Assembly (NCBI RefSeq): GCF_963675165.1
Contig: NC_087379.1
Coordinates: forward strand, 310,001 to 374,000
Origin: Halichondria panicea
Taxonomy: Eukaryota; Porifera; Demospongiae; Suberitida; Halichondriidae
Direction: 5' to 3'
DNA: 64,000 nt
Each line of letters opens with the position of its first letter. Within the stretch, counting starts at the first letter, position 1. Under the pieces are notes generated by a model. That model saw only the letters and a program-made list of their open reading frames with translations, had not been told where the DNA came from and made no database searches. The translations under genes and the position numbers were made by a program. Positions 31,964 to 63,952 of the stretch are shown one piece after another.

Positions 31964-34264
31964 ATGTCTAGGCTAGCTACAATGTATCAAAACTGGCTGC
32001 TCCAGTTGCTCTGTATCATAGCTGTATTATCTGTAGTTAGAAGCTCACAAAAACAACCTCTATATATCCTTTCCTTGCTGCCCTACCCAGACCCAGTGGG
32101 CACCCAACCCTCCTGGACTGAAGGGCCTACTTTGATCTTGGCTGAACAATTAGCAGTGGACATAATTAACAACAGAACAGATATACTCTCTGACTACACA
32201 CTAGAGCTAATCCAAGGAGACAGTGGATGTAATATTGGAACTAAAACTGCAGCTGCTTTTATAAAAAATACTCTCTACAGTGTTCAGAATATTGCTGGAA
32301 TTGTTGGCCCTGGTTGCTCTACATCTACCATCACAGTATCTTCCCTCACTGGAAACAATCAGATTGCTCTGATCACTGTGCATGGAGCTGGTTCCCTGCT
32401 GCTGGAGGATCGAGTCATCTATCCCTACAGTTTTGGTACACTGGACTCAACCAAAGCATTTGCTAAAGCTGCTCAGAGATTACTAGTCGAGAATCAATGG
32501 AACAGAGTAGGAAGTTTGTACGACCCGGGAAGAGTGTACTACTCTACAACTCTGAAGTACTTTGAAGGATTAATTGAATGCCAAGAACATTTTGAGTGTT
32601 CAACAAATTTCATTTTTGGTGTGCAAAATGCTTCGATACCACTTGACATTCTGAGAAAAAACAACATCAGGATAATATTTCTTTTTGTGGGTCCAGAATT
32701 CTTGCGACGGATTCTTTGCTTGGCATTCCATCAAAATATGCTCCCCCCAAATTATCAATGGATTATTGTGAGCAGAGTGGTAGAAGAAATAACATCCATT
32801 ACTTTCACAATAAACAATGCTGAATACTATTGTTCCAATGATGACATGAAATTGATGGCAAGAGGGTCGCTGATTTTACACTACTCTCTAAAACCAATTG
32901 ATCCACCGGCTTCCTTGGACCAATACATAAACTACACGGAGTTTCTGTCACAATATGAGAGTAGGGTTACCCAGTACAATTCATATGTGAGCAAACCTAG
33001 TGAGAGGATTGAGCCAAGTTTTTGGGCTACAGCTTATTTTGATGCAACTTGGGCACTTGCTCTAGCTCTGAATAATTCCAGAGATGAACTGATGGCAACA
33101 ATTGGTTTAGAGCTGTCCCAGTACAGACATGGCAACTCATTCGCTACTGATATCATCAGAAAGAATCTCCTAAAGTTGGACTTCAATGGAGTTTCTGGTC
33201 AGATATCATTTAGAGAGACAACTGGATATGTACCGAGACTAATAGACGTGTACCAAATCAATAATGCGAATGAAATGTCAATTGTAGCTTACTACAATAG
33301 TCGCAACGATACCATCACAGCAATCGATGACTACCAGTTCATTAATGGAACCTTCAATCAGGAATTAATTACCGTGAAAGTTCATTTGGCTCTAGGAATT
33401 GTGTACTTGGTATTTACGATTGGTCAATTGGCTTTAATAATTACATTACACATTCTAACACTCCAATTTCGAGACAAGAAGCCAGTGAAAGCGTCCAGCC
33501 CAAAGCTATCTCATTTTTCCTTTATTGGCTGCTACTTTTTGATTGTTGGTGCAACAAGCTATATCATAGCAGAAACATTTTCAGGACAAATTGACTCAAC
33601 CATTAAATGCAATCTCTTTTATGTGACCTACTTTGCGTCTAGTATTGGCGGTACTCTTATCTTTGGAACTGTGTGTGCACGCATTTGGAGGTTGTATCGC
33701 ATCTTCGTCTTTTATCTTAATCCAGGAAAGCTGATCACAGAAACAGCACTCATAACATTTATCCTGACACTGTTTCTGTGTAGTCTGTTCTTGTGCTCTC
33801 TATGGGTGGTGTTTGACAGACTTGTTCCTATGGAAACGGAACAAGAGGAGATAACAGAACAGCATAACAGCGATGGGAGCAGCGTCTTTAATATTCAAGT
33901 GTACCTCGATATACATTGTCTCCAAGATACTTCAATTTACTGGCTAATTTCCCAGCTTGTTTTCAATCTACTTGTCATGAGCATTGCTCTGTGCCTGGCA
34001 ATATTAACCAGACGAATTCCACACAAAGATTTCAAAACAAAACGAATTGTACTCCTAGTTTACATTCTCTCTGGTGTACTGATGCTGGGATACATAACTT
34101 CATACATCCTACAAGCAAGACAAGCAACTGTAATAGCAAAGTTCATTGTTCTCAGCACAGTACACAATCTGGTGATTTTTGTAACAGCTATGTTATTGTT
34201 ATTACCTCCTGTGTACATGGCTGTGCTGGAACTGAAGACACAGCAAACAAAACATTACCTATAA
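31964..34264 (+). CDS. GABA-B-like class C GPCR, subfamily A, copy 1 (A1)
   Basis: Single exon, 766 aa. A signal peptide (NWLLQLLCIIAVLSVV) is followed by a Venus-flytrap domain (residues about 30-450) with the GABA-B-type landmarks GIVGPGCSTST, VHGAGSLLLEDR, YYCSNDDMK, SFWATAYFDATWALALALNN and LDFNGVSGQISF. Seven membrane helices run from about 469 to 755: VKASSPKLSHFSFIGCYF at TM2, FGTVCARIWRLYRIF at TM3, and a last helix ending LLLLPPVYMAV. The tail is only about 10 residues. Many N-glycosylation sites lie in the ectodomain. The annotated ATG is 31964; a second in-frame ATG at 31982 also leaves a signal peptide. The class and fold are well supported; the ligand is unknown. Members of this class couple to G proteins as dimers at the plasma membrane. 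It is the first gene of the array and divergent from HELZ. A2 (from 40124) is nearly identical. Confidence 0.93.
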   Translation: MSRLATMYQNWLLQLLCIIAVLSVVRSSQKQPLYILSLLPYPDPVGTQPSWTEGPTLILAEQLAVDIINNRTDILSDYTLELIQGDSGCNIGTKTAAAFIKNTLYSVQNIAGIVGPGCSTSTITVSSLTGNNQIALITVHGAGSLLLEDRVIYPYSFGTLDSTKAFAKAAQRLLVENQWNRVGSLYDPGRVYYSTTLKYFEGLIECQEHFECSTNFIFGVQNASIPLDILRKNNIRIIFLFVGPEFLRRILCLAFHQNMLPPNYQWIIVSRVVEEITSITFTINNAEYYCSNDDMKLMARGSLILHYSLKPIDPPASLDQYINYTEFLSQYESRVTQYNSYVSKPSERIEPSFWATAYFDATWALALALNNSRDELMATIGLELSQYRHGNSFATDIIRKNLLKLDFNGVSGQISFRETTGYVPRLIDVYQINNANEMSIVAYYNSRNDTITAIDDYQFINGTFNQELITVKVHLALGIVYLVFTIGQLALIITLHILTLQFRDKKPVKASSPKLSHFSFIGCYFLIVGATSYIIAETFSGQIDSTIKCNLFYVTYFASSIGGTLIFGTVCARIWRLYRIFVFYLNPGKLITETALITFILTLFLCSLFLCSLWVVFDRLVPMETEQEEITEQHNSDGSSVFNIQVYLDIHCLQDTSIYWLISQLVFNLLVMSIALCLAILTRRIPHKDFKTKRIVLLVYILSGVLMLGYITSYILQARQATVIAKFIVLSTVHNLVIFVTAMLLLLPPVYMAVLELKTQQTKHYL

Positions 34265-34749
34265 AATCTTACCATTCTCATTTTTATCATAATCACTGTA
34301 CTGATGCAATATTTATAAATGGAATGTGAAGTAAATGCGAAACCCCCTCGAGGTGTGTGTAGTCTAGTTGCAATTGTATTCGGAAGGTTGTAAAAATATC
34401 AGTAATAGCTAGTGTTCGTCATGGGGATAGAGATGAAAAAGACTGGTGGAAACTTACAGGGAAATGTGTGTTATGTGATATGGATCATAGCAGAGTCAAG
34501 TTACTAGTTCCAGGAGCACATAACAGAATGTGCTCTTGCTTGGAAAAATGGGCATACATTGCGCATGCGCATTAATTTAACACCCACTCACCACTCACAT
34601 GTGGGTGGAGCTCTGCTTGCAAATCACAATGTCAATGGAAGCACAATGACACACTTTCACTATGTGTTCTCCCTACTTCCTTAAAATGAAATGTATAACT
34701 ACCGGGCATGTTATTTAAACAAACACTACAGTGTTTAGATGCCATAATT
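34265..34749. other. Spacer A1-B1
   Basis: 485 bp without a gene, nearly identical to the A2-B2 spacer 42110-42597. It holds the palindrome GCGCATGCGC (34561-34570) in TTGCGCATGCGCATT about 180 bp before the B1 start, followed by CACCCACTCACCACTCACAT. This is likely the B-type promoter. Confidence 0.6.
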
Positions 34750-36999
34750 ATGGCTGCTCTTAAACTACAAGTGTGGACTGTGCTTGCCACACTAGTTTTA
34801 ACCACAGTATCAAGCAAGAACCAGATCATTAACATCCTAACACTACTGCCCTATCCAGATACTCTGTTCAATCCTTCTTGGAGAGATGGACCACAAGTTT
34901 CAGTGGCTCTGGAAATTGCTAAAGAGGACATCAATAATCGAACTGATATTTTACTTGACTATCAAATCGAACTGATTCATGGTGACAGTGGATGTGAGTA
35001 CACCACTAAGGCTTATGAAGCTATCTTGAGCAATGTGTATTCTTCAAGCACAGGAGTGGTCGGAATCATTGGTCCTGGTTGCTCAAGTGCGTCCATTGCT
35101 ATGACTACGTTGTCAAGTCGAAAGGAGCTTTCGTTAATAACTGTACATGGAGGGAGCAGTCCGATATTGTCGGATAGAACTAAGCGACCTTATGCCCTAG
35201 GCACGTTAGGGTCCAGTGAAGCGTTTGCAATAGTTGGAGTTCAGATAATGCAGAAGCATAACTGGCGGAGGGTGGGGATTATATTCGAAGAGGCTCGCTT
35301 GCTTTACTCCGCCACAGCTGCGAGAATTGGAGAGATCTTATCAGAACTGAACTCTACTACATTGGATACTACTGCTCTTACTATCAGTGGCTTTGTATTT
35401 CCTGTTTACGATTCGTTTATTCCTCTGAACGTGATCGTGGATGAAGGTCTTCGTGTTAATCTGTTGTTAACATCAGTGCCCGCTACACAGCGGATCATCT
35501 GTCTAGCATTTCACCGTGGTATGGTGTACCCCAAATATCAGTGGGTTATAACAAGTAATACATTTGAGGAAGTTGCTAAAGATATTGAGTTTTATTTTGA
35601 GGGACAAGAATACAATTGCTCTGCTGCAGAAATGCAGGAAATAGCTCTAAACAGAACATTATTTTTCAATTTCAGACTAACTCCATTGAATGAATCAGCT
35701 CCTTCAAATTATTCTAAAATCTCCTTTAAAGAATATGATCGAATTTATAGAAGCAAGCTTGAAGATTATAACCTCACCTATTCCATTTGGACCACTTATT
35801 TCTACGACGCCCTTTGGGCATGGGCAGTCGTTTTGGACAGACTTTCACAGAGAGGTTTGGACCTCACCAAGTTTCGGTATGGGAACACCTCGCTATCAAA
35901 TATGGTGCTCGAGGAGTTCTACCGTCTAGACTTTGAGGGGGTGTCAGGAAGGATAAAGTTTAATAATGACTCGGGACTTCTAACTCGACCATCTTCGGTA
36001 TTTCAAGTGGTTAATAGCACTGCACAATTGGTTGCCATTTACGACGATAATGGTTTAACAATGCTCACTTCATTAGATCCCATATTGGATCATTTCCCTG
36101 ATCAATCCGGCATAGAAATAAATCGTGCACTGCTTGCAGTTTTTATTGCAATTATACTGTTTCAGCTCATAGTCTTAATCATACTCCACATACTCAGTAT
36201 CAAGTACAGACATGTCCCATCAGTCAAAGCTTCAAGTCTTAAGCTCAACCAATTGCTGTACATTGGATGCTATCTGTTTACGGTCACTCTGCTGCTCTAC
36301 ATTGCAAACGTTGGCTATGAATTGTTTGATGATGAAGCGACAGTGGTGATGTGCAATATACAATGGTTTTGGCTCTTCCCCATTTCTTTTACGCTGACTT
36401 TCGGAACAGTAGCTGTTAGAACATGGAGACTGCATCGAATCTTCACACACTATCTCAATCCAGGATGCTTCATTGCTGACCACTACCTCGTGGCCTTTGT
36501 ATTCATCTTGCTGGGTGTTGATGTTCTATTCGGTACTTTGTGGGTGGCCATCGACCCACAGCAGCTGGTGATTACCAAATTTCCTCAAATTGAAGGAGTT
36601 ATTAAGTACAATGTTCTTATGCGACTGTGCGTTAGTAGCAATCAATGGTGGTCTTTTGGTTTGGTATTTGGCTACAAACTGACATTAATGACAATTGTTC
36701 TGGTTTTGGCATTTATAACTCGGAACATAAAGAACCAATCGTTCACCACAGTAACACTTCGCACTCTTGTCTATCTGTCCTTGGTTGATATTTTGTTCGG
36801 ATTTTTCTTTTACTATCTGTTCCGATTTTTAATGCCACTCTCTCCTGCATCTTTCATCTCCATAGTGGTATCACTGAACATCATGCTGTTCTTCTTTATG
36901 GGGCTAGTGTGTATACCTCCCTTGTTACCAAAGCTTAAAGAAGAGCTCAAGAAATGTTCGCAAAGAATGCATTTTACTAAATTAACTGACTCCAGCTAG
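34750..36999 (+). CDS. GABA-B-like class C GPCR, subfamily B, copy 1 (B1)
   Basis: Single exon, 749 aa from the ATG of MAALKLQVWTVLATLVL (signal peptide). An upstream ATG at 34708 is open but is not kept in the B2 paralogue, whose frame is closed there, so 34750 is preferred. Venus-flytrap landmarks: LLPYPDTLFNPSWRDGPQVS, GIIGPGCSSASIAM, VHGGSSPILSDR, EYNCSAAEMQEIALNR, SIWTTYFYDALWAWAVVLDR and DFEGVSGRIKFNN. The 7TM domain spans about 457-725 with VKASSLKLNQLLYIGCYLF, FGTVAVRTWRLHRIFTHYLN, GTLWVAIDPQQLV and FGYKLTLMTIVLVLAFITRN. The tail is short (about 24 residues, ending KLTDSS) with no coiled coil. B2 differs by roughly nine residues. One difference in TM3-TM4, NPGC here versus NPGR in B2 and all C members, looks specific to this copy. 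Confidence 0.94.
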   Translation: MAALKLQVWTVLATLVLTTVSSKNQIINILTLLPYPDTLFNPSWRDGPQVSVALEIAKEDINNRTDILLDYQIELIHGDSGCEYTTKAYEAILSNVYSSSTGVVGIIGPGCSSASIAMTTLSSRKELSLITVHGGSSPILSDRTKRPYALGTLGSSEAFAIVGVQIMQKHNWRRVGIIFEEARLLYSATAARIGEILSELNSTTLDTTALTISGFVFPVYDSFIPLNVIVDEGLRVNLLLTSVPATQRIICLAFHRGMVYPKYQWVITSNTFEEVAKDIEFYFEGQEYNCSAAEMQEIALNRTLFFNFRLTPLNESAPSNYSKISFKEYDRIYRSKLEDYNLTYSIWTTYFYDALWAWAVVLDRLSQRGLDLTKFRYGNTSLSNMVLEEFYRLDFEGVSGRIKFNNDSGLLTRPSSVFQVVNSTAQLVAIYDDNGLTMLTSLDPILDHFPDQSGIEINRALLAVFIAIILFQLIVLIILHILSIKYRHVPSVKASSLKLNQLLYIGCYLFTVTLLLYIANVGYELFDDEATVVMCNIQWFWLFPISFTLTFGTVAVRTWRLHRIFTHYLNPGCFIADHYLVAFVFILLGVDVLFGTLWVAIDPQQLVITKFPQIEGVIKYNVLMRLCVSSNQWWSFGLVFGYKLTLMTIVLVLAFITRNIKNQSFTTVTLRTLVYLSLVDILFGFFFYYLFRFLMPLSPASFISIVVSLNIMLFFFMGLVCIPPLLPKLKEELKKCSQRMHFTKLTDSS

Positions 37000-37394
37000 T
37001 TTCACAGATACTTACTCATCATTTAATTTGTGTATTGACAATTCTTGTTCATACAAAACACACTCTTGCAACCGAAAAAAATGATTTCAGTGTTGACACA
37101 AGTGATTACACAGATGCAATATCCTTACTGTTATGAACAACCATCAACTTAAAACATACTTTCAACATAATTATATAGGTACACTGCATGCATGCAGTAC
37201 TACAGCTTCACTTAGCCTTGGATTCTCATGTGAATGCATATTCATAGCCTGACCATGTGATTCTTGTGGTAGAATAATTACACTGTATATGGGTGATGAT
37301 TAAAAGCAGCCACACCTAGAAATATGTATTAAAACTACAAGTTAGTGTATTTAGCTTGTTTAATTAACAACTAAAATAGATCTAGTTACAGCTC
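37000..37394. other. Spacer B1-C1
   Basis: 395 bp, no gene. The first part is shared with 44848-45140 and partly with 53304-53460. The end (CACACCTAGAAATATGTATT ... AGATCTAGTTACAGCTC before the ATG) is shared with the region upstream of C2, and in weaker form with all other C genes, and is a likely C-type promoter and 5' UTR. Confidence 0.6.
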
Positions 37395-39701: not shown

Positions 39702-40123
39702 TTTTTGTATCACTATTGTGTTTTATTGTATGCACACTTATTCATTGTATCATCAATAATCAGACACAATCATGTTCCAGTTTTGTTATATTCCTGTTGT
39801 ATTATTTACATTCACTCAGACATAATGAAATCATGCTACAAAACTTGGAGACATAATAATTTGTCTCTAGTTAAGATTATATATGTATCAGCATATCGGG
39901 GTCAGCTGACAAGCTATTTATTTTTGTCACTGTGTTCAGCCATTTAGAACACAGAGAAGCTACAAAAACTTCAATTCAGCTACTGTGTGCAGTACTATAT
40001 ATCTGCACTGGAAATAACCTTTTGTGTTTGTTCTTTCTGCATTAGGTTTGTGTAAGCACCTTGTGGGCATAGACCACTAATTGCATTATAAAATCACATT
40101 ATAACTGATAGGAATCTCGTTAC
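39702..40123. other. Spacer C1-A2
   Basis: 422 bp, nearly identical to 51114-51526 downstream of C3 (AGACACAATCATGTTCCAG, TCAGCATATCGGGGTCAGC, TTGTGGGCATAGACCACT). It stops abruptly at the A2 truncation point. No gene is seen. Confidence 0.7.
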
Positions 40124-42109
40124 TGTGCTCAGAATATTGCTGGAATTGTTGGCCCTGGTTGCTCTACATCTACCATCATGGTATCTTCCCTCACTGGAAA
40201 CAATCAGATTGCTCTGATCACTGTGCATGGAGCTGGTTCCTTGCTGCTGGAGGATCGAGTCACCTATCCCTACAGTTTTGGTACACTTGACTCAACCAAA
40301 GCATTTGCTAAAGCTGCTCAGAGATTACTGGTTGAGAATCAATGGAACAGAATAGGAAGTTTGTACGACCCGGGAAGAGTGTACTACTCTACAACTCTGA
40401 AGTACTTTGAAGGATTAATTGAATGCCAAGAACATTTTAAGTGTTCAACAAATTTCAATTTTGGTGTGCAAAATACTTCAATACCGCTGGACATTCTGAG
40501 AAAAAACAACATCAGGATAATATTTCTCTTCGTGGGTCCAGAATTCTTGCGACGGATTCTTTGCTTGGCATTCCATCAAAATATGCTCCCCCCAAATTAT
40601 CAATGGGTTATTGTGAGCAGAGTGGTAGAAGAAATAACATCCATTACTTTCACAATAAACAATGCTGAATACTATTGTTCCAATGATGACATGAAATTGA
40701 TGGCAAGTGGGTCGCTGATTTTACACTACTCTCTAAAACCGATTGATCCACCGGCTTCCTTGGACCAATACATAAACTACACGGAGTTTCTGTCACAATA
40801 TGAGAGTAGGGTTACCCAGTACAATTCATATGTGAGCAACCCTATTGAGAGAATTGAGCCAAGTTTTTGGGCTACAGCTTATTTTGATGCAACTTGGGCA
40901 CTTGCTCTAGCTCTGAATAATTCTAGAGATGAACTGATGGCAACAATTGGTTTAGAGCTGTCCCAGTACAGACATGGCAACTCATTCGCTACTGATATCA
41001 TCAGAAAGAATCTTCTAAAGTTGGACTTCAATGGAGTCTCTGGTCAGATATCATTTAGAGAGACAACTGGATATGTACCGAGACTAATAGATGTGTACCA
41101 AATCAATAATGCGAGTGAAATGTCAATTGTAGCTTACTACAATAGTCGCAACGATACCATCACAGCAATCGATGACTACCAGTTCATTAATGGAACCTTC
41201 AATCAGGAATTAATTACCGTGAAAGTTCATTTGGCTCTAGGAATTGTGTACTTGGTATTTACGATTGGTCAATTGGCTTTAATAATTACATTACACATTC
41301 TAACACTCCAATTTCGAGACAAGAAGCCAGTGAAAGCGTCCAGCCCAAAGCTATCTCATTTTTCCTTTATTGGCTGCTACTTTTTGATTGTTGGTGCAAC
41401 AAGCTATATCATAGCAGAAACATTTTCAGGACAAATTGACTCAACCATTAAATGCAATCTCTTTTATGTGACCTACTTTGCGTCTAGTATTGGCGGTACT
41501 TTTATCTTTGGAACTGTGTGTGCACGCATTTGGAGGTTGTATCGCATCTTCGTCTTTTATCTTAATCCAGGAAAGCTGATCACAGAAACAGCACTCATAA
41601 CATTTATCCTGACACTGTTTCTGTGTAGTCTGTTCTTGTGCTCTCTATGGGTGGTGTTTGACAGACTTGTTCCTATGGAAACGGAACAAGAGGAGATAAC
41701 AGAACAGCATAACAGCGATGGGAGCAGCGTCTTTAATATTCAAGTGTACCTCGAAATACATTGTCTCCAAGATACTTCAATTTACTGGCTAATTTCCCAG
41801 CTTGTTTTCAATCTACTTGTCATGGGCATTGCTCTGTGCCTAGCAATATTAACCAGACGAATTCCACACAAAGATTTCAAAACAAAACGAATTGTACTCC
41901 TAGTTTACATTCTCTCTGGTGTACTGATGCTGGGATACATAACTTCATACATCCTACAAGCAAGACAAGCAACTGTAATAGCAAAGTTCATTGTTCTCAG
42001 CACAGTACACAATCTGGTGATTTTTGTAACAGCTATGTTATTGTTATTACCTCCTGTGTACATGGCTGTGCTGGAACTGAAGACACAGCAAACAAAACAT
42101 TACCTATAA
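40124..42109 (+). CDS. GABA-B-like class C GPCR, subfamily A, copy 2 (A2), 5'-truncated
   Basis: Nearly identical to A1 from the middle of lobe 1 of the Venus-flytrap (AQNIAGIVGPGCSTSTIMV) to the end, with the same stop and 3' flank. About 107 residues, including the signal peptide and first strand-helix units, are missing. Upstream the frame closes at TAG 40109-40111, so no replacement N-terminus exists in this exon. The first ATG inside is 40178 (MVSSLTGNNQIALITVHGAG), giving 643 aa. The remaining frame is fully open over 1.9 kb, so the truncation is recent or the product is still tolerated. A protein without a signal sequence and with half a ligand lobe is unlikely to work as a normal receptor. 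I treat it as a probable pseudogene with an intact remaining frame. Confidence 0.85.
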   Translation, partial: CAQNIAGIVGPGCSTSTIMVSSLTGNNQIALITVHGAGSLLLEDRVTYPYSFGTLDSTKAFAKAAQRLLVENQWNRIGSLYDPGRVYYSTTLKYFEGLIECQEHFKCSTNFNFGVQNTSIPLDILRKNNIRIIFLFVGPEFLRRILCLAFHQNMLPPNYQWVIVSRVVEEITSITFTINNAEYYCSNDDMKLMASGSLILHYSLKPIDPPASLDQYINYTEFLSQYESRVTQYNSYVSNPIERIEPSFWATAYFDATWALALALNNSRDELMATIGLELSQYRHGNSFATDIIRKNLLKLDFNGVSGQISFRETTGYVPRLIDVYQINNASEMSIVAYYNSRNDTITAIDDYQFINGTFNQELITVKVHLALGIVYLVFTIGQLALIITLHILTLQFRDKKPVKASSPKLSHFSFIGCYFLIVGATSYIIAETFSGQIDSTIKCNLFYVTYFASSIGGTFIFGTVCARIWRLYRIFVFYLNPGKLITETALITFILTLFLCSLFLCSLWVVFDRLVPMETEQEEITEQHNSDGSSVFNIQVYLEIHCLQDTSIYWLISQLVFNLLVMGIALCLAILTRRIPHKDFKTKRIVLLVYILSGVLMLGYITSYILQARQATVIAKFIVLSTVHNLVIFVTAMLLLLPPVYMAVLELKTQQTKHYL

Positions 42110-42597
42110 AATCTGACCATTCTCATTTTTATCATAATCACTGTACTGATGCAATATTTATAAATGGAACGTGAAGTAATGCTAAACCCCCTCGAGGTGT
42201 GTGTAGTCTAGTTGCAATTGTATTCGGAAGGTTGTAAAAATATCAGTAATAGCTAGTGTTCGTCATGGGGATAGAGATGAAAAAGACTGGTGAAAACTTA
42301 CAGGGAAAATGTGTGTTATATGATATGGATCATAGCAGAGTCAAGTTACTAGTTCCAGGAGCACATAACAGAATGTGCTCTTGCTTGGAAAAATGGGGGC
42401 ATACATTGCGCATGCGCATTAATTTAACACCCACTCACCACTCACATGTGGGTGGGGCTCTGCTTGCATACAAATCACAATGTCAATGGAAGCACAGTGA
42501 TACTTTCACTATGTGTTCTCCCTACTTCCTTAAAATGAAATGTATAACTACCGGGCGTGTTATTTAACAAACATTACAGTGTTTAGATGCCATAATT
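42110..42597. other. Spacer A2-B2
   Basis: 488 bp, nearly identical to 34265-34749, including the palindrome GCGCATGCGC at 42408-42417. It also has a small open frame at 42256-42567 that the homologous A1-B1 spacer does not keep intact, so that frame is not a gene. Confidence 0.65.
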
Positions 42598-44847
42598 ATG
42601 GCTGCTCTTAAACTACAAGTGTGGACTGTGCTTGCCACACTAGTTTTAACCACAGTATCAAGCAAGAACCAGATCATTAACATCCTAACACTACTGCCCT
42701 ATCCAGATGCTCTGTTCAATCCTTCTTGGAGAGATGGACCACAAGTTTCAGTGGCTCTGGAAATTGCTAAAGAGGACATCAATAATCGAACTGATATTTT
42801 ACTTGACTATCAAATCGAACTGATTCATGGTGACAGTGGATGTGAGTACACCACTAAGGCTTATGAAGCTATCTTGAGCAATGTGTATTCTTCAAGCACA
42901 GGAGTGGTCGGAATCATTGGTCCTGGTTGCTCAAGTGCGTCCATTGCTATGACTACGTTGTCAAGTCGAAAGGAGCTTTCGTTAATAACTGTACATGGAG
43001 GGAGCAGTCCGATATTGTCGGACAGAACTCAGCGACCTTACGCCCTCGGTACGTTAGGGTCCAGTGAAGCGTTTGCAATAGTTGGAGTTCAGATAATGCA
43101 GAAGCATAACTGGCGGAGGGTGGGGATTATATTCGAAGAGGCTCGCTTGCTTTACTCCGCCACAGCTGCGAGAATTGGAGAGATCTTATCAGAACTGAAC
43201 TCTACTACATTGGATACTACTGCTCTTACTATCAGTGGCTTTGTATTTCCTGTTTACGATTCGTTTATTCCTCTGAACGTGATCGTGGATGAAGGTCTTC
43301 GTGTTAATCTGTTGTTAACATCAGTGCCCGCTACACAGCGGATCATCTGTCTAGCATTTCACCGTGGTATGGTGTACCCCAAATATCAGTGGGTTATAAC
43401 AAGTAATACATTTGAGGAAGTTGCTAAAGATATTGAGTTTTATTTTGAGGGACAAGAATACAATTGCTCTGCTGCAGAAATGCAGGAAATAGCTCTAAAC
43501 GGAACATTATTTTTCAATTTCAGACTAACTCCATTGAATGAATCAGCTCCTTCAAATTATTCTAAAATCTCCTTTAAAGAATATGATCGAATTTATAGAA
43601 GCAAGCTTGAAGATTATAACCTCACCTATTCCATTTGGACCACTTATTTCTACGACGCCCTTTGGGCATGGGCAGTCGTTTTGGACAGAATTTCACAGAG
43701 AGGTTTGGACCTCACCAAGTTTCGGTATGGGAACACCTCGCTATCAAATATGGTGCTCGAGGAGTTCTACCGTCTAGACTTTGAGGGGGTGTCAGGAAGG
43801 ATAAAGTTTAATAATGACTCGGGACTTCTAACTCGACCATCTTCGGTATTTCAAGTGGTTAATAGCACTGCACAATTGGTTGCCATTTACGACGATAATG
43901 GTTTAACAATGCTCACTTCATTAGATCCCATATTGGATCATTTCCCTGATCAATCCGGCATAGAAATAAATCGTGCACTGCTTGCAGTTTTTATTGCAAT
44001 TATACTGTTTCAGCTCATAGTCTTAATCATACTCCACATACTCAGTATCAAGTACAGACATGTCCCATCAGTCAAAGCTTCAAGTCTTAAGCTCAACCAA
44101 TTGCTGTACATTGGATGCTATCTGTTTACGGTCACTCTGCTGCTCTACATTGCAAACGTTGGCTATGAATTGTTTGATGATGAAGCGACAGTGGTGATGT
44201 GCAATATACAATGGTTTTGGCTCTTCCCCATTTCTTTTACGCTGACTTTCGGAACAGTAGCTGTTAGAACATGGAGACTGCATCGAATCTTCACATACTA
44301 TCTCAATCCAGGACGCTTCATTGCTGACCACTACCTCGTGGCCTTTGTATTCATCTTGCTTGGTGTTGATGTTTTATTTGGTACTTTGTGGGTGGCCATC
44401 GACCCACAGCAGCTGGTGATTACCAAATTTCCTCAAATTGAAGGAGTTATAAAGTACAATGTTCTTATGCGACTGTGCGTTAGTAACAATCAATGGTGGT
44501 CCTTTGGTTTGGTATTTGGCTACAAACTGATATTAATGATAATTGTTCTGGTTTTGGCATTTATAACTCGGAACATAAAGAACCAATCGTTCACCACAGT
44601 AACACTTCGCACTCTTGTCTATCTGTCCTTGGTTGATATTTTGTTCGGATTTTTCTTTTACTATCTGTTCCGATTTTTAATGCCACTCTCTCCTGCATCT
44701 TTCATCTCCATAGTGGTATCACTGAACATCATGCTGTTCTTCTTTATGGGGCTAGTGTGTATACCTCCCTTGTTACCAAAGCTTAAAGAAGAGCTCAAGA
44801 AATGTTCGCAAAGAATGCATTTTACTAAATTAACTGACTCCAGCTAG
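42598..44847 (+). CDS. GABA-B-like class C GPCR, subfamily B, copy 2 (B2)
   Basis: Single exon, 749 aa, about nine residues different from B1 (for example PDALF for PDTLF, LSDRTQRP for LSDRTKRP, FTYYLNPGR for FTHYLNPGC, and two T-to-I changes in YKLILMIIVL). Same signal peptide, Venus-flytrap, 7TM and short tail as B1. The 5' flank closes the frame just before the ATG, supporting 42598 as the true start. It is in the second A-B-C block, between truncated A2 and C2. The differences look like ordinary drift; nothing is missing. Confidence 0.94.
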   Translation: MAALKLQVWTVLATLVLTTVSSKNQIINILTLLPYPDALFNPSWRDGPQVSVALEIAKEDINNRTDILLDYQIELIHGDSGCEYTTKAYEAILSNVYSSSTGVVGIIGPGCSSASIAMTTLSSRKELSLITVHGGSSPILSDRTQRPYALGTLGSSEAFAIVGVQIMQKHNWRRVGIIFEEARLLYSATAARIGEILSELNSTTLDTTALTISGFVFPVYDSFIPLNVIVDEGLRVNLLLTSVPATQRIICLAFHRGMVYPKYQWVITSNTFEEVAKDIEFYFEGQEYNCSAAEMQEIALNGTLFFNFRLTPLNESAPSNYSKISFKEYDRIYRSKLEDYNLTYSIWTTYFYDALWAWAVVLDRISQRGLDLTKFRYGNTSLSNMVLEEFYRLDFEGVSGRIKFNNDSGLLTRPSSVFQVVNSTAQLVAIYDDNGLTMLTSLDPILDHFPDQSGIEINRALLAVFIAIILFQLIVLIILHILSIKYRHVPSVKASSLKLNQLLYIGCYLFTVTLLLYIANVGYELFDDEATVVMCNIQWFWLFPISFTLTFGTVAVRTWRLHRIFTYYLNPGRFIADHYLVAFVFILLGVDVLFGTLWVAIDPQQLVITKFPQIEGVIKYNVLMRLCVSNNQWWSFGLVFGYKLILMIIVLVLAFITRNIKNQSFTTVTLRTLVYLSLVDILFGFFFYYLFRFLMPLSPASFISIVVSLNIMLFFFMGLVCIPPLLPKLKEELKKCSQRMHFTKLTDSS

Positions 44848-46177
44848 TTTCACAGATACTTATACTCATCATTTAATTTGTGTATTGACAATTCTTGTTC
44901 ATACAAAACACACTCTTGCAACCGAAAAAAATGATTTCAGTGTTGACACAAGTGATTACACAGATGCAATATCCTTACTGTTATGAACAACCATCAACTT
45001 AAAACATACTTTCAACATTGGGATTCTTTGGCACACTGCATGCGTGCAGTACTACAGCTTCACTTAGCCTTGGATTCTCATATGAATGCATATATTCATA
45101 GCCTGACCATGTGATTCTTGTGGTAGAATAATTACACTGTAGTATAACCCTTTCCTTGCCATTCGTGAAATCTGGAACAGGAGCGTCTTTAGGTCGATCA
45201 ATTAGTGTGGATCCGGCCTCACCACGCCTCCAAGTCATTCTATTAGTCTAGATCCGGCTAGCAATTCTAGCTGGGACTCCCAGTTCTAGCTCCTTTTGTT
45301 TAGCGTGTCAGAGACTGGGAGAAGATGATTGGCACTCCCTGGCTCCTTTGGATGTACAGCTGTCCAGATCCCTAGAACATACCCTCCATTCTGACGAGTT
45401 ATCAGTGCATAGGGTGCTTACTAGATTCTTGCCAGCCAGTACAGTTCAAGCTACACACAGCACCGCTCAACTATTCTCTACCCCATTATCTAGCTAAATC
45501 TGGTCCAACTAGACAGCAGACACAGCTAGTTAATTCAGTAAAGCCAGGGGTAGCCCTACTTCTACGGTTGTTCAGTACCCACGGTAACAATTCCTCTGGG
45601 CTGGGCTAACTAGTTGAGCCACGCCTCCCAATTCTCAAGGCTAGGTACATGTCTCTGTCTAGCTGCTTCTTCAGCTTCTTGCTCAGTTTTGTGGCTTAGA
45701 GAAAGGCCAGCTACTCAGGGGGAAGAGTCCAGATGAAAGTCTGGCAGCCAGGTGACGTCCAAACGGTCAGTTATTCTTTCCACCAACTTTTTAATCTAGT
45801 CTAGTCCTGCTTGCACTGCTACTACTACTGCTGCCTACTGCTGCTACTCTTCCTAGCTAGTCAAAGGTTTCTTTTTTTTTTTTTTTTTTTTATAACTACA
45901 TATGCACAAAGAGACATCAAAGCTTACATCAAAGGACACAGATTTTTAGCCTACTTGACTGATAAGGCGGTTACCTAGACTACAGTTTGTTTGTCAGGGA
46001 GGAGCTCACATACAACTTCATCTAATTCATCATAACGATTCCTTACCCATTGTTGTAATTTCTACAACAGATTGCCAAGGAAAGAGATATGGGTGATGAT
46101 TAAAAGCAGCCACACCTAGAAATATGTATTACAACTACAAGTTAGTGTTGTTTAATTAACAGATCTAGTTACAGCTC
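44848..46177. other. Spacer B2-C2 with a roughly 945-bp insertion
   Basis: Positions 44848-45141 and 46088-46177 are the same spacer as 37000-37394. The middle, about 45143-46087, is absent from the B1-C1 spacer. See the separate entry for the insertion. No gene is seen in either part. Confidence 0.75.
45143..46087. mobile_element. Inserted element of about 945 bp, unknown class
   Basis: The paralogous spacer reads ACACTGTATATGGGTGATG without a break; here ACACTGTAG and ATATGGGTGATG flank about 945 extra bases. The ends are loosely inverted (CCCTTTCCTTGCCA at left, TTGCCAAGGAAAG at right). A poly-T run lies at 45869-45890. The interior has only short frames, no recognisable transposase. It is best read as a non-autonomous mobile element. 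Confidence 0.65.
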
Positions 46178-51683: not shown

Positions 51684-51701
51684 GTCGTACCCACTTTGAT
51701 C

Positions 51702-51804: not shown

Positions 51805-51854
51805 ACTTTGATCATGCTCTTCACTTACTACTAGTCCAGTTAATGATCCTTACC

Positions 51855-52168: not shown

Positions 52169-52405
52169 TCCTTACCTATACAAATTAATAATGACAACTT
52201 TGCGCATCTTTCACTCGGGAAGAATGTGTACGTACAACAAAAGTAATGCAGCTGCTTAATCTTGAGCTGGGATGCCTTGTGTTAGCTTTTCAGTGTGGCT
52301 CGGTATTACTGGCTCCATTGTATATAGCCACTTTCTTCCAAAATTGGCAAGAGAACAGCTATTAGGATCATGATGTCTCAACTCTAATCCACAGAATAGT
52401 TAGTG

Positions 52406-53303
52406 ATGTCTAGGTTAGCTACAATGTATCAAAACTGGCTGCTCTAGTTGCTCTGTGTCATAGCTGTATTATCTGTAGTTAGAAGCTCACAAAAACAACC
52501 TCTATATATCCTTTCCTTGCTGCCCTACCCAGACCCAGTGGTCACTCAACCCTCCTGGACTGAAGGGCCTACTTTGATCTTGGCTGAACAATTAGCAGTG
52601 GACATAATTAACAACAGAACAGATATACTCTCTGACTACACACTAGAGCTAATCCAAGGAGACAGTGGATGTAATATTGGAACTAAAACTGCAGTTGCTT
52701 TTATAAACAATACTCTTTACAGTGCTCAGAATATTGCTGGAATTGTTGGCCCTGGTTGCTCTACATCTACCATCATGGTATCTTCCCTCACTGGAAACTG
52801 GAAACAATCAGATTGCTCTGATCACTGTGCATGGAGCTGGTTCCTTGCTGCTGGAGGATCGAGTCACCTATCCCTACAGTTTCGGTACACTTGACTCAAC
52901 CAAAGCATTTGCTAAAGCTGCTCAGAGATTACTGGTTGAGAATCAATGGAACAGAATAGGAAGTTTGTACGACCCGGGAAGAGTGTACTACTCTACAACT
53001 CTGAAGTACTTTGAAGGATTAATTGAATGCCAAGAACATTTTAAGTGTTCAACAAATTTCATTTTTGGTGTGCAAAATACTTCAATACCGCTGGACATTC
53101 TGAGAAAAAACAACATCAGGATAATATTTCTCTTCGTGGGTCCAGAATTCTTGCGACGGATTCTTTGCTTGGCATTCCATCAAAATATGCTCCCCCCAAA
53201 TTATCAATGGGTTATTGTGAGCAGAGTGGTAGAAGAAATAACATCCATTACTTTCACAATAAACAATGCTGAATACTATTGTTCCAATGATGACATGAAA
53301 CTC
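52406..53303 (+). pseudogene. GABA-B-like receptor subfamily A, copy 3 (A3), broken 5' fragment
   Basis: Matches A1 from the 5' flank through NNAEYYCSNDDMK and then stops matching at about 53303, about 300 residues into the gene. It carries an in-frame TAG in the signal peptide (codon 14; CAG in A1) and a 7-bp duplication (CTGGAAA) near 52795 that shifts the frame. The last two thirds, including the whole 7TM domain, are gone; the sequence jumps to a spacer of the B-C type (CTCACTTTCAACATGGGACT). It is very similar to A2 where both exist (for example ECQEHFKCSTNF, QNTSIPLDILR), so the decay is recent. Non-functional as a receptor. Confidence 0.92.
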
Positions 53304-53635
53304 ACTTTCAACATGGGACTGCATGCATGGGTACACACTAGATGAATAAAATTAATGTCAACTGTTTCACACAAACTGCTGTCCATGCATTCTGCAGCTT
53401 GATTCTATCAGTACATGTGAATGCATAATTATTCATGGTCTGACCATGCACGACGTGTGAATATAATGTACATGGCTCAGTGTGCTGTACAAGGAAGTTT
53501 TATCATGTGGTCAGATCAGATAGATGAGTATGATACGGTAGCCAGCCACACGTACTTATACGTACCTCTAATTAAATTGGGTTTGTGACAACTACAAGCT
53601 TGTGTTATTTAGCTAGATAGATCTAGTTACAACTC
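53304..53635. promoter_or_regulatory. B-C type spacer and C4 promoter block
   Basis: 332 bp. 53304-53460 resembles the spacer that follows B genes (CTTTCAACAT, ATGTGAATGCATAATTATTC, CTGACCATG). 53491-53635 equals the block before C3. The first part is the trace of a lost B gene. Confidence 0.65.
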
Positions 53636-56704: not shown

Positions 56705-59011
56705 ATGGCTATATTGTACAAGTACTTGTTGCTAGCATTCTGCTTGCTAGCAACGCTCTGGCTGCAGCTGGGAGCAAGAACCAAACTCTGTACATCCTAA
56801 CACTACTGCCCTATCCTTATATCAACCCACTGTTTGATCCCTCTTGGGTTGAAGGACCTCAAGTTTCTCTGGCTCTGGAAATTGCTAAAGAAGAGATCAA
56901 TAATCAACTTGCAATTCTACCAGGCTATCAAATAGAACTGATTGGTGGTGACTGTGGATGTGAGTATGTGGACAGGGCTTACGAAGCAATAGGAAGCACT
57001 ACATACTATCCTGGTGTATCCAAGATGCCAATCGGTATAATTGGTCCAGGCTGCTCGAGCTCATCTCTTTTAGTCTCTTTATTGACCAATCGAGAGGCTT
57101 TATCTCTTGTAAATGTTCATGGGGGTGGCAGTCCATTATTGTCTGACAGAACCAACCTCCCCTACTCACTTGGTACCCTTGGATCTGCAGAAGCATTTGC
57201 GAATGTAACCATCGAACTAATGCGTGCAAATAACTGGCATAGAATAGGAATACTGTTCAACGAATTCCGACAATTCTACTCCAGTACAGCGCAAACTCTC
57301 CATGACATCATATCTTCTAACGCCACATTAAATAGTTATTTGTCACCAGTTTATGATAACACTTATATTCCATTGTCAGAGATTATGCAACAAGGCATTC
57401 GAATAAACATACTCTTCACACCAGTGAGGACCACACGGCAAGTGCTCTGTCTAGCTTTGCATCGTGGGGTCGTGTATCCAGCCTACCAGTGGATCGTGAC
57501 CAGCAATACATTCGAGGATATTGCTCAAAATGTGAACTTTGTGTTCGACCATCAAGTCTATATAACTGTTCCGAGGCAGAAATGCGACAAACTGCTCTCA
57601 ATAGAGTCTCGTTTATAAATTACCGACTCTCCCATATTAACGAATCAGCTCCTTCAACGTATTCCAAGCACTCCTTCAAAGAATACGATGCATTATTTCG
57701 GAACAGACTTCAAGAGCATAATTTACAAAACAATGCCAACATAACGTATTCTGTTTGGACCACTTATTTCTACGATACCCTCTGGGCATGGGCAGTAGTT
57801 TTGGACAGAGTCGCCATTAGAGAGCCTAATATGGACCTCACCCAGTTTCGGTATGGGAACACTTCATTATCAAGATTGGTGCTCGAGGAATTCTACGGTC
57901 TAGACTTTGAGGGGGTGTCAGGAAGGATAAAGTTTAATAATGACTCGGGATTTCTGAATAGAGTTATATCTGTGTTTCAAGCAAAAGATGGTAATGTGAC
58001 GGAAATTGGTTACTTTGATGGTGTGCACTTCATAGATAAAGAAGACCTAGATGCCATAGAGGGGGAATTTCCGGATAAAAACTTCAATATTGGTCCCGAT
58101 GTGTTTGCGGCTCTTCTCATTGTGACTGTTTTAGAACTGGTGATATTAATAACACTCCATGTGCTTACAATAAAATATCGATTCTCTCAATCTGTAAAAG
58201 CCTCGAGCCCTAAGCTCAGTCAGCTAACCTTTATTGGGTGCTATCTCATTATATTCACACTATTCCTCTACATGTTCAGGAGTTATCTCTTGTTAGATGA
58301 TTATACCACAGTTTTTCTCTGCAACTTAACCTGGGCATGGTTGCTTCCCGTCTCCTTTACGCTGGCTTTCGGAACGGTGGCTGTTAGAACATGGAGACTG
58401 CATCGAATCTTCACACACTATCTCAATCCAGGACGCTTCATTGCTGACCACTACCTCATGGCCTTTGTATTCATCTTGCTTGGTGTTGATGTTCTATTTG
58501 GTACTTTGTGGATGGCCATTGACCCACAGCAACTGGCCGTGAAGAATGTTACTCAAGACGTTACAAATTTTGTGGTTCGGACATGCAGGGACAATTCGTA
58601 TTGGTCTTATGGGTTGATATTTGGATACAGGGGAGTATTGATTGTCATTGTTCTGGTGCTGGCATTTCTGACTCGGAATATTCAGAACCAGTCATTCAGA
58701 ACTAAAACGCTGCGTGTCATGGTTTATCTCTCCAGTCTTACCTTGGTGGTCGGGTTTGTGCTCTTCTACTTGTTCCTATTCTATGGTCCTCCGTTATCCC
58801 ACGGACCTACTGTATTTTTAAATCTCACTTTCCATGGCGTCCTGCTCCTGTTCATAACGCTGATTTGCCTGCCTCCCCTCATACCAAAGCTGCGTGAAGA
58901 ATTCTATAAAAAAAGTTTCCACACTTGATCAAGACCCGTGAAGTTGATTTTGAAATCGAAACTGAAACTGAGAGCTGTGTGATGGAGGGTTCTAGTCGAT
59001 TTTACATATGA
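56705..59011 (+). pseudogene. GABA-B-like receptor subfamily C, copy 5 (C5), frameshifted
   Basis: Full-length C-type gene from ATGGCTATATTGTAC to the conserved end TTTTACATATGA. Three separate 2-bp additions relative to C4 and C6 interrupt the frame: AT in the signal peptide (GCTATATTG versus GCTATTG, about 56710), TA near 57561 (GTCTATATAACTG versus GTCTATAACTG), and AA near 58914 (TATAAAAAAAG versus TATAAAAAG). The rest of the sequence is excellent: all Venus-flytrap and 7TM landmarks are kept with no internal stop. It is either a very young pseudogene or a working gene with three assembly errors in short AT repeats. The second half is nearly identical to C4. Confidence 0.85.
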
Positions 59012-59324
59012 TTTTTTTTTATGGTGTGTTTTTTGTGTATACTATACCATTTACTGTGCACAATGACAAGCAACTTGCAAAACACAGTACATACCAAGAG
59101 TTCCTAAGGTATGTACTGATAGGTGACCTGGTGGTGATGAATATAATGTCGTAGACTCTACATGCAAGGAAGTTATGTTATTTCTTTATGGTTAGATCTA
59201 AGGTAGCCACACCTATACCAGAGTCTGGCATGTAGAGAGGCCTAGAGTATTATTGTGGGTGACAACTACAAGCTTGTGTATTATAGTCTAGCTTGTTACG
59301 ATAGATAATTAGTTACAAGCTCAG
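58991..59324. promoter_or_regulatory. Spacer C5-C6 with C-type promoter block
   Basis: About 59100-59324 repeats the block before C5: TACTGATAGGTGACCTGG, GATGAATATAATGTCGTA, GGTAGCCACACCTATA, ACCAGAGTCTGGCATG, then GTGACAACTACAAGCTTGTG and TTAGTTACAAGCTCAG directly before the ATG. The ACAACTACAAGCTTGTG and TAGTTACA motifs precede C3, C4, C5 and C6, and weaker forms precede C1 and C2. Confidence 0.6.
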
Positions 59325-61610: not shown

Positions 61611-61860
61611 TTTTTTGTGGTGTATTTTTTGTGTATGCACACTAATTTCTTATTCATTTACTGTATATACATTTTGGAGTATTTAAATTTTCCATTGCTG
61701 CTTTAATACTCTTGACTTGCTATTATACTGTGACACTTTTGCGCATGCGTTTCACTCGGGTGAAGAGAAAAGAAATGCAGCTACTTGAGCTGTGTTTGCT
61801 CTTCAGTGCGGCTCTGTGTGACTGTTACTAGCTCCATTGTGTGTACTATACTCTCTATAG
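61611..61860. other. Spacer C6-C7
   Basis: 250 bp, no gene. Contains ACTTTTGCGCATGCGTTTCA followed by CTCGGG (61736-61760), the best preserved copy of the block found also at 52198 and 56081, then GCAGCTACTTGAGCTGTG. Confidence 0.6.
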
Positions 61861-63095
61861 GCACGCTTGGATCTGCAGAAGCTTTTGTGAATGTAACCAT
61901 CAAACTAATGCACACGAACAACTGGCATAGAATAGGAATACTGTTCAACAAATTCCGAGAATTCTACCCCAGTACAGCGCAAAGTCTCCATGACATCATA
62001 TCTTCTAACGCCACATTAAGTAGTTATTTATTGCCAGTTTATGATAACACTTATATTCCATTGTCGAAGATTATGCAACAAGGCATTCGAATAAACATAC
62101 TCTTCACACCAGTGAGGACCACACGGCAAGTGCTCTGTCTAGCTTTCCATCGTAGGATTGTGTATCCAGCCTAGTGGATCGTGACCAGCAATACATTCGA
62201 GGATATTGCTCAAAATGTGAACTTTGTGTTTGACAATCAAGTCTATAACTGTTCCGAGGCAGAAATGCGACAAACTGCTCTCAATAGAGTCTCGTTTATA
62301 AATTACCGACTCTCCCATATTAACGAATCAGCTCCTTCATCGTATTCCAAGCACTCCTTCAAAGCATTAATTATTTCAGAACAGGCTTCAAGAGTATAAT
62401 TTGCAGAACAATGCCAACATAACGTATTCTGTTTGGACCACTTTTTTCTACGACACTCTCTGGGCATGAGCAGTAGTTTTGGACAGACTCGCCATTAGAG
62501 AGCCTAATATAGACCTCACCCAGTTTTGGTATGGGAACACCTCGCTATCAAACATGGTGCTCGAGGAATTCTACCATCTAGACTTTGAAGGGGTGTCAAG
62601 AAGGATATAATTATTTCAACGATGACTCGGGGATTTCTGAATCGGGTAATATCTGTGTTTCAAGCAAAATATGGTAATGTGACGGAGGTTGGTTACTTTG
62701 ATGGTGTGCACTTCATAGTTAAAGAAGACCTAGATGCTATAGAAGGGGAATTTACGAATGACTATTTTAGTATTGGCTCTGGTGTGTTTGCGGCTCTTTT
62801 CATTGTGACTGTTCTAGAGCTGTAATAATAACACTCCATGTGCTTACATCAATTCTATCAATCTGTAAAAGCCTGAGCCCCAAGCTCAGTCTGCTATAGC
62901 AACGCTCTGGCTGCAATATTGTTATTGTTCTGGTACTAGCATTTCTGATTTCTGACTTGAAACATTCAGAACCAGTCATTCAGAACTAAAACACTGCGTG
63001 TCCTGGTTTATCTCTCCAATCTTACCTTGGTGGTTGAGTTTGTGCTCTACTACTTTTTTCTATTCTATGGTTCTCCCATACCCTATGCATTTAAT

Positions 63096-63534
63096 CAGGA
63101 GCGTAGCCAGGATTTTTCCGAAGAGGGTCAAAACTTATCAGCCGCGCAGCGCCGAAATTTTGACAGGAAGCCATGCCTCTTAATTATGACGTCATAATTG
63201 ACTTCTCTATTAGTTGGGTGTGGCCTGGTGTTTAGAAGAAGCTAGCCTCGATTCAAGGCCGATTAAAATACGTATTTTAATCCGCCTTGAATCGAGGCTA
63301 AGAAGAAGCTAGTTTAGCAAAGAACAAGAACTGTCTATAGATTTAGACCAAAATAGCTCACAGTTTAGAGACTAAATCATTTTACTTGCCTACTAGCTAG
63401 CTAACTGCAGCAAGATTCCGAAGAAAGGGAGTGCTCAGCAAGATAATCAGATAAAATAACTTGAGCAGAGTAGTAGAGATCCAGCAAAAGGGGGGGCATT
63501 TGCCCCCTTTCCCCCCTGCCTGGCTACGCCACTG
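63096..63534. mobile_element. MITE-like element with GCGTAGCCAGG ends, with a nested element
   Basis: Left end CAGGAGCGTAGCCAGGATTT, right end CCTGGCTACGCCACTG: imperfect inverted repeats of about 16 bp. It splits the C7 relic between TACCCTATGCATTTAAT and TCTTTAAATCTCACTTTCC. No ORF of note. The palindromic element 63243-63300 is inserted within it. Target duplication unclear. Confidence 0.75.
63243..63300. mobile_element. TAGCCTC palindromic element, 58 bp, nested
   Basis: TAGCCTCGATTCAAGGCCG at left and CGCCTTGAATCGAGGCTA at right around an ATTAAAATACGTATTTTAAT core. Identical 9-bp flanks AGAAGAAGC at 63234-63242 and 63301-63309. Confidence 0.95.
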
Positions 63535-63588
63535 ATCTTTAAATCTCACTTTCCATGCGGTTATCTTGCTCCTGTTCATAACGCTGAT

Positions 63589-63645
63589 TAGCCTCGAATC
63601 CAGGCCGATTAAAATACGTATTTAATCGGCCTGGTCTCGAGGCTA
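63589..63645. mobile_element. TAGCCTC palindromic element, 57 bp, inside the C7 relic
   Basis: TAGCCTCGAATCCAGGCCG and CGGCCTGGTCTCGAGGCTA around ATTAAAATACGTATTTAAT. Identical 9-bp flanks AACGCTGAT at 63580-63588 and 63646-63654. The intact receptors carry the uninterrupted site TTCATAACGCTGATTTGCCT (for example near 55779-55798), a true empty site. Confidence 0.97.
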
Positions 63646-63952
63646 AACGCTGATTTACCTGCCTCCCCCTCATACCAAAGCTGCGTGAAAAAAGTTTTTA
63701 CACTTGATCAAGACCCGTGAAGTTGATTTTGAAATCAAAACTGAAACTGAGAGCTGTGTGATGGAGGGTTCTAGTCGATTTTAAATAATTATTATGGTGT
63801 TTTTTTTTTGTGTATGCACGCTTATTGCTTATTTATTTACTGTTGTTCATTATTTTCATTGCTGCTATTAGTCTTGCGGAGGACCCAGACCCTGAATATC
63901 GGCTGGTTCGTATGGGTTCGCTGCTATTAGTCCGGTCTCGCGGACCCAGACC

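Follow-up and report, generated by a model that had tools for sequence, protein, structure and literature searches.

A tandem array of GABA-B-like class C receptor genes in the sponge Halichondria panicea

A row of receptor genes related to the GABA-B receptors for γ-aminobutyric acid (GABA) occupies the right half of a 64,000-nucleotide stretch of the demosponge Halichondria panicea (NCBI RefSeq assembly GCF_963675165.1, NC_087379.1, positions 310,001 to 374,000 of the forward strand). This whole stretch, referred to here as the window, is contig C3:310001-374000 in our labelling of the assembly, which has 131 Mb in 39 contigs; "contig C3", "contig C10" and the like always denote assembly contigs, and C1 to C11 without the word contig denote copies of the subfamily-C gene. 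A listing of open reading frames (ORFs) and tblastn searches of four copies against the window agree on 12 class C receptor copies, all on the plus strand, between positions 31964 and 63778. Eight of these are whole single frames, one (A2) is truncated at the 5' end but open, and three (A3, C5 and C7) are broken. An earlier interpretation made from the letters alone (the sequence-only reading) had proposed the same number, strand and states of the copies, and its order of A-B-C, A-B-C-C and A-(B lost)-C-C-C-C matches the mapped order of A1 B1 C1, A2 B2 C2 C3 and A3 C4 C5 C6 C7. The gaps between neighbouring window copies range from 243 to 1330 bp.

The first block consists of three whole ORFs: A1 (31964..34264; 766 aa), B1 (34708..36999; 763 aa from the first ATG, or 749 aa from an ATG at 34750 that gives a B2-like start) and C1 (37395..39701; 768 aa), the last being a mosaic of a C2-like binding domain and a C3-like transmembrane domain. 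In the second block, A2 (40112..42109; 98.1% nucleotide identity to A1) is missing about 100 N-terminal residues and retains 665 open codons, with its first ATG at 40178; it is followed by the whole ORFs of B2 (42598..44847; 749 aa; 99.2% nucleotide identity to B1), C2 (46178..48493; 771 aa) and C3 (48813..51113; 766 aa). The third block opens with A3 (52357..53345), a 5' part in two frames whose 3' part is missing together with the next B gene. Beyond it lie C4 (53636..55936; whole, 766 aa), C5 (56705..59016; near full-length homology in three frame pieces), C6 (59325..61610; whole, 761 aa) and C7 (61854..63778), a remnant from about residue 153 onwards with several stops and gaps.

The count of 12 copies is itself an effect of the window edge, as the array continues past it. 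Joining the first 63000 bases of the window to eight fetched loci gave 143 kb of sequence reaching contig C3:453000, in which the array extends for a further 61 kb, to contig C3:435327, and gains ten extra units: C8, C9, five D genes, C10, a broken C11 and an E1 gene of 919 codons. The whole array thus measures about 93 kb and has about 22 genes in a row, all on the plus strand, of which 18 have an open receptor frame that is 600 aa or longer; small C-type fragments are also found within it, and the window copies form its first third. In C9 (contig C3:384273-387606), an insert of 1055 bp interrupts the copy following codon ~68; it has inverted terminal repeats (14 bp, as read by eye), and an intron was therefore rejected as the explanation of this gap. 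A C-type copy 84% identical to C1 lies on contig C6, adjoining a decayed remnant.

Pfam ANF_receptor and 7tm_3 domains were present above the curated cut-offs in all seven of the scanned copies, out of nine open copies in the window (A1, B1, C1, C2, C6, A2 and B2 were scanned; C3 and C4 were left out), and D1 and the contig-C6 copy also carry ANF_receptor followed by 7tm_3. The array copies are class C (glutamate family) G protein-coupled receptors (GPCRs). In GABA-B receptors, as described in passages of one study, no NCD3G cysteine-rich domain stands between the Venus-flytrap (VFT) binding domain and the seven-transmembrane (7TM) domain (PMC12716839). The linker of C1 is only about 40 residues long, with the ANF match ending at residue 420 and the first hydrophobic segment beginning at 459, which leaves no room for a cysteine-rich domain; the array copies thus combine a VFT and a 7TM domain without one. 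The scanned array copies gave no Pfam match to NCD3G, a weak silence given that L040, a single-frame gene resembling metabotropic glutamate receptors (mGluRs) that matches mGlu3 (E = 2.6e-136) and aligns with its cysteine-rich stretch, gave no such match either. In a search of PDB sequences, GB1 and GB2 were the best solved relatives of C1 (E = 1.7e-42) and A1 (E = 3.6e-34), and also of D1. The domains and the short linker agree with the GABA-B architecture that had been proposed from the letters. GABA-B receptors, which GABA activates as obligate heterodimers, have a C-terminal coiled coil that serves their assembly; in the array, the tails that follow the last hydrophobic segment are short, at about 8 aa in A1, 19 in B1 and 37 in C1. 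The five whole window C copies end in SSRFYI or SSQFYI, resembling a PDZ-binding tail; C8, C9, C10 and the contig-C6 copy end otherwise.

Two trees place these genes relative to known GABA-B receptors. The first, made by a quick method, had 58 rows, four of them references and the other 54 open sponge frames no shorter than 600 aa; human GB1, human GB2 and fly GB1 grouped with one sponge gene, L007 (support 96), and 47 other sponge rows, including all 18 array rows, grouped beside this set (support 94). The second combined 29 rows of the first with exon pieces of intron-bearing genes on contigs C10 and C7, both found with a fly GB1 query. The contig-C10, contig-C7 and L007 genes joined human GB1/GB2 and fly GB1 (96.8/99), and the array stayed in a separate sponge clade (89.4/88). 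Over about 60 residues, an exon of the contig-C10 gene shares 53-56% identity with fly GB1; for array copies the figure is 23-28% over the binding domain. Genes of GB1/GB2 type are therefore present elsewhere in the same genome, two of the three being intron-bearing, and the trees place the array outside the clade of human GB1/GB2 and fly GB1, in a sponge clade beside the animal GABA-B receptors. The contig-C7 gene, in locus L046, was noted as an intron-bearing, GABA-B-like gene apart from the single-frame arrays.

The residues that bind GABA point in the same direction. Passages of one paper list seven GABA-contact residues in GB1 (W65, S130, S153, H170, Y250, W278 and E349) and an inter-subunit latch of His3.55 and Glu5.60 present in both GABA-B subunits (PMC12499500). 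In our alignment, human and fly GB1 have all seven contacts, A1 and the whole C copies keep two (Trp65 and Ser130), and B1 and B2 keep three (Trp65, Ser130 and Ser153). One or two contacts are kept by the D copies and a single one by E1, the same number as in human GB2, a subunit that does not bind GABA. His170, Tyr250, Trp278 and Glu349 are missing from every one of the 18 array rows (two of these, A2 and C9, are truncated). The contig-C10 pieces keep Ser153, Tyr250 and Trp278 and have a Leu at position 170, with positions 65, 130 and 349 uncovered. At the latch, position 3.55 is His in B and C and Tyr in A, D and E, and Glu5.60 is found in none of the 18 array rows and in none of the 54 sponge rows of the open-frame alignment; the contig-C10 piece keeps Glu5.60, with Tyr in place of His3.55. 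We infer that the array receptors do not bind GABA in the manner of GB1. Their ligand may perhaps be a carboxylated small molecule, since all whole A, B and C copies retain Ser130 and Trp65 as an anchor. The sequence-only reading had assigned the array to the GABA-B type, and in the strict sense this assignment is not supported, the array standing apart from GB1/GB2 in the trees and having lost most of the GABA contacts. Locus L045 (contig C10:226001-232000) holds the multi-exon GB1-like gene, which appears to be the best candidate GABA receptor seen in this genome.

The spacers and coding sequences of the window record how the array grew. The stretch at 32276..37287 recurs at 40121..45141, also on the plus strand, with 98.3% identity over 5026 bp; synonymous divergence (dS) is 0.017 for B1/B2 and 0.037 for A1/A2, and A and B each differ by 1-2% between the blocks. 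A recent block duplication, as proposed before, is thus well borne out. A3 is 98.1% like A2 over the aligned part, and the C1-to-A2 and C3-to-A3 spacers are 97.9% alike over 390 bp, which argues for a single ancestral C-A junction behind blocks 2 and 3. The other spacers between blocks are also close, at 95.7% for A-to-B and at 95.3% over 295 bp plus 83% over 108 bp for B-to-C. The C-to-C junctions are patchy: C4-to-C5 and C5-to-C6 are 80% alike over 266 bp, and the C2-to-C3 spacer shares only 21-62 bp with C4-to-C5, C5-to-C6 and C6-to-C7. The claim of shared spacers holds between blocks (A-to-B, B-to-C and C-to-A) and only in patches at the C-to-C junctions.

A simple expansion of C genes alone, the other half of the earlier proposal, does not fit the C copies, which are mosaic. 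Between C1 and C2, dS is 0.013 in the VFT domain versus 0.203 in the 7TM domain; between C1 and C3, it is 0.121 versus 0.050. The breakpoint in C1 falls at alignment positions 1212-1239 (about codons 404-413), with 84 of 86 informative sites C2-like to its left and 96 of 106 C3-like to its right, and none of 1000 shuffles was as extreme in a maximum chi-square (max-chi) test, a result shared by all six triples that were tried. The surroundings of C1 are divided likewise, its downstream spacer matching that of C3 and its upstream spacer that of C2. Trees of the binding and 7TM domains of ten C sequences differ, and approximately unbiased tests reject the swapped topologies (3.6e-37 and 0.0016). 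In eight of 55 copy pairs, a run of identity is longer than any that 400 shuffles produced (uncorrected). Recombination has made the C genes mosaics, and exchange among them is general. Recombination aimed at the domain border was considered and rejected, as tract ends are scattered even though the strongest triple breaks at codons ~404-413. The simplest reading of the C2-C3 pair is that a single block-2 C gene was split by unequal crossing-over, which would replace the proposed C-only expansion at this point. A 946-bp insertion in the B2-to-C2 spacer (45142..46087), absent from the B1-to-C1 spacer, entered block 2 only. It is a young dispersed repeat with at least 39 other genome copies at 99-100% identity (40 of 346 candidates were scored); several copies lie about 5 kb or 9 kb apart, and it looks like the solo long terminal repeat of a very young element.

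The array genes appear to be maintained. Nine C sequences, with C9 and the contig-C6 copy among them, make 36 pairs, and in every pair the ratio of nonsynonymous to synonymous divergence (dN/dS) is below 1 in both domains, ranging from 0.27 to 0.80 in the VFT and from 0.18 to 0.87 in the 7TM domain; it is 0.37 for A1/A2, 0.32 for B1/B2 and 0.44-0.89 for the ten D pairs. These pairwise averages gave no sign of recent positive selection on the binding domain. When C1 was given 75 or 100 random substitutions, it stayed open in only 3.8% or 1.9% of 1000 trials; the five whole window C copies differ pairwise by 109-196 substitutions (10 pairs), and the rarity of open frames in the control indicates that the whole copies are maintained. 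Judged from sequence comparison, purifying selection on the array genes is shown. Subfamilies are far apart, with identities of about 34% for A-C, 55% for B-C and about 30% for C-D. Among eight C copies, only 5 of the 49 positions that lie no more than three residues from a presumed contact vary, versus 92 of 367 elsewhere in the domain (p = 0.019), and this conservation near the pocket argues against recent ligand diversification among them. The pocket diversification that marks chemoreceptor sets was not found among the C copies, and the pocket does differ between subfamilies; if specificity differs, it should be expected to do so between subfamilies rather than between C copies.

Our results suggest, with a probability of about 0.67, that the array encodes sponge-specific class C receptors for a small ligand other than GABA, perhaps a carboxylated one, and that it grew in tandem by duplication and by the swapping of halves. 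Each gene would encode a receptor at the cell surface; its Venus-flytrap domain would close on a small ligand outside the cell and, through the 7TM domain, drive a G protein. Copy number would rise by unequal crossing-over, A-B-C blocks being multiplied first and C units then being split and multiplied, and conversion would swap binding and transmembrane halves between copies. Different specificity for ligands or partners probably lies more in how subfamilies A to E differ from one another than in how the C copies do. The receptors are likely used to sense chemical signals that are water-borne or come from symbionts or tissues, and the array may sense external cues.

Several points weigh against this interpretation. 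The pocket comparison is a sequence alignment only, and an AlphaFold model of C1, the model coming from the nine window proteins, was unusable (mean pLDDT, the per-residue confidence score, of 39). The larger tree was made by a quick method; support for the sponge clade is moderate (94; 89.4/88), with many long branches, the contig-C10 and contig-C7 rows are partial, and the place of the contig-C10 gene relative to GB1 and GB2 has a support of only 51/57. The selection of tree rows as open frames no shorter than 600 aa explains in part why the sponge clade is intronless, and single-exon status was read from open frames, so that introns in the 5' untranslated region may be present. L007, on the GB side, is a single frame of 865 codons that begins within the binding domain, and long single frames are seen in the mGluR-like genes as well; hence, intron status does not cleanly separate the groups. 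Lastly, the recent C copies may be redundant rather than a diversifying chemoreceptor set.

This last point can be carried further. The C copies might mostly represent redundant dosage at an unstable tandem locus, kept uniform by conversion and purifying selection without any sensory diversification, as would fit the conserved pocket neighbourhood of the eight C copies, the pairwise dN/dS values below 1, the pervasive conversion and the several broken copies. However, A, B, C and D have strongly diverged and each has yet been kept, and the whole C copies are open beyond chance, so that we regard redundancy of this kind as possible but unlikely. Slightly more doubtful is a bolder scenario in which a single intronless retrocopy of a GABA-B-type gene founded a sponge-only superfamily that left GABA, an intron-bearing lineage kept GABA, and recombination within arrays re-pairs ligand-binding and signalling halves. 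New ligand-to-output combinations would then appear with no further point mutations, and a nerveless animal would have a modular chemoreceptor repertoire. We have lowered our estimate of this scenario a little because long open frames were the basis on which tree rows were picked and because L007 and the mGluR-like genes are single-frame too.

It is also conceivable that the array copies are true GABA-B receptors, orthologous to GB1/GB2, which bind GABA, work as heterodimers (A paired with B or C, for instance) and act in the control of sponge contraction. Such receptors would have the same domain architecture and the same best PDB matches, the A-B-C genes were duplicated together, and GABA affects contraction in Tethya and Ephydatia according to passages of one source (PMC10133484). 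We nevertheless consider this improbable, as the array lies outside the GB1/GB2 clade, only two or three of seven GABA contacts remain in the whole A, B and C copies, the latch Glu5.60 is missing from all 54 sponge rows and a better GB1-like, intron-bearing gene is present on contig C10. Least probable of all is an assembly artefact in which blocks 1 and 2 are two haplotypes set in tandem. The 98.3% identity over 5 kb would suit such an artefact, and the assembly does have at least one 100% identical 4.2-kb duplicate at a contig end. A haplotype origin of the blocks was nonetheless rejected on two grounds: the flank at 1-31900 (31.9 kb) is single within the joined 143 kb, and the contents of the blocks are unequal (a truncated A2, an extra C and the insertion). 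Moreover, the joined sequence contains no N's, C1 combines features of C2 and C3, and long alignments of C copies are 88-97% identical. The worry about haplotypes raised in the sequence-only reading was thus checked on the assembled sequence, and, with A and B block copies 1-2% apart, a real array is favoured.

Arrays of this type are already known in sponges, and ours is a well-resolved example rather than a new kind. According to passages of the paper on the Ephydatia muelleri genome, this species has more than 120 mGABA receptors, of which 48% lie on three scaffolds, with a dense cluster on scaffold 22 given as a dot plot (PMC7385117); the same passages name "one cluster" of more than 50, which may mean a family cluster (PMC7385117). 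Like the array, these are demosponge tandem clusters of GABA-B-like genes. The likeness is one of description, and the Ephydatia passages give no intron status, pocket residues or recombination. In Amphimedon queenslandica, one paper describes 33 glutamate-family GPCRs, mostly sponge-specific, with the GABA-B-like ones unstable in trees (PMC4302439); this set has fewer genes, and the words "tandem" and "intron" are absent from that main text (PMC4302439). The placozoan Trichoplax has 37 GABA-B-like genes in seven separate clades, with one receptor orthologous to GB1 (PMC10133484), in passages that do not describe how these genes are arranged in the genome; the expansion resembles the array in being a lineage-specific radiation in a nerveless animal. 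With bilaterian GB1/GB2 the array shares a Venus-flytrap and a 7TM domain without a cysteine-rich domain, and a recognisable binding domain (the 23-28% identity to fly GB1 given above); unlike them, it lacks Glu5.60 and the majority of the GABA contacts, its tails are short, and the trees put it outside their clade. The olfactory receptors (ORs), trace amine-associated receptors (TAARs) and vomeronasal type 1 receptors (V1Rs) of vertebrates are described in passages of one paper as single-exon tandem genes with birth-and-death evolution (PMC11526382). The array shares with them its single-exon tandem layout (single-exon as judged by open frames) and its gain and loss of copies, and the earlier comparison with chemoreceptor clusters is sound for this layout. 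However, ORs, TAARs and V1Rs are other receptor families, and the C copies show no diversification of the pocket.

Sponge GABA receptors were reportedly discussed in a 2017 preprint on Tethya. In the open-access literature searched, outside which lie most subscription papers and all bioRxiv preprints, we found no paper that describes, for GABA-B-like arrays of sponges, whether the genes have introns, whether the pocket has been lost or whether the domains are mosaic. Three details were not found published there: GB1/GB2-type genes together with a separate sponge clade in one genome, loss of the GABA site at residue level across an array, and mosaic C genes. Sponges have no neurons, and their many GABA-B-like receptors are sometimes taken as pre-neuronal GABA signalling. 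A large, well-assembled part of one such repertoire is here without most of the GABA site and stands apart from the GB1/GB2-type genes of the same genome. A simple rule follows for sorting sponge genes into those worth testing as real GABA receptors and those to be tested as orphans with a possible chemosensory role. In addition, the array displays how class C receptors multiply, by block duplication, intragenic crossing-over and exchange of binding and transmembrane halves.

The left edge of the array is marked by a multi-exon gene on the minus strand, in which CCCH zinc fingers match above the cut-off and two helicase pieces match AAA_11, one above and one below the cut-off; it is consistent with HELZ. 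Its zinc-finger ORF (30755..31708, minus strand) is the start of this divergent HELZ-like helicase gene, with an ATG 255 bp from the start of A1. The two genes are head-to-head, and the array therefore lies upstream of the HELZ-like gene, not downstream as had been stated. Within the region of this gene, positions 29279-29902 of the window hold a long TG-rich tandem repeat of period 20 with a spurious 207-aa ORF. Across the array copies, no common TATA-like or AATAAA/ATTAAA pattern was found as core promoter or poly(A) signal.

A scan of the genome yielded 123 scored 7tm_3 matches, of which 57 (counted from the table, mGluR-like genes included) lie in stop-free frames of at least 550 aa, so that single-frame genes are common in this genome. 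The copies of the array are indeed single-frame, as had been noted, but lack of introns is not a special mark of the array. Other 7tm_3 matches, on contigs C7, C5, C2, C9 and C10, are broken into exon-size pieces, and clusters of class C matches in such pieces were seen at contig C7:3208136-3298284 and in parts of contigs C2, C5 and C9. Another array of single-frame class C genes, some on the plus and some on the minus strand, occupies contig C4:7232001-7302000 (loci L017-L023); one of its copies, searched in PDB, matched mGluR and GABA-B chains, mainly in the 7TM domain. Two loci on contig C11 (L033, C11:6026012-6030193; L034, C11:6804501-6808682) are 100% identical over 4182 bp, and the second lies at the contig end, possibly as an assembly duplicate of a single receptor gene. 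Silicatein is a protein of siliceous sponges, and its gene fits a host of that kind, most likely a demosponge. A degenerate pattern of CGASYAF, which we take to be its active-site motif, had three matches, all at contig C2:656915-667884 (L029-L031) within 11 kb, and none in the reversed control; one of these sites (L031) falls, on reading by eye, inside an evident multi-exon cathepsin-L-like gene.

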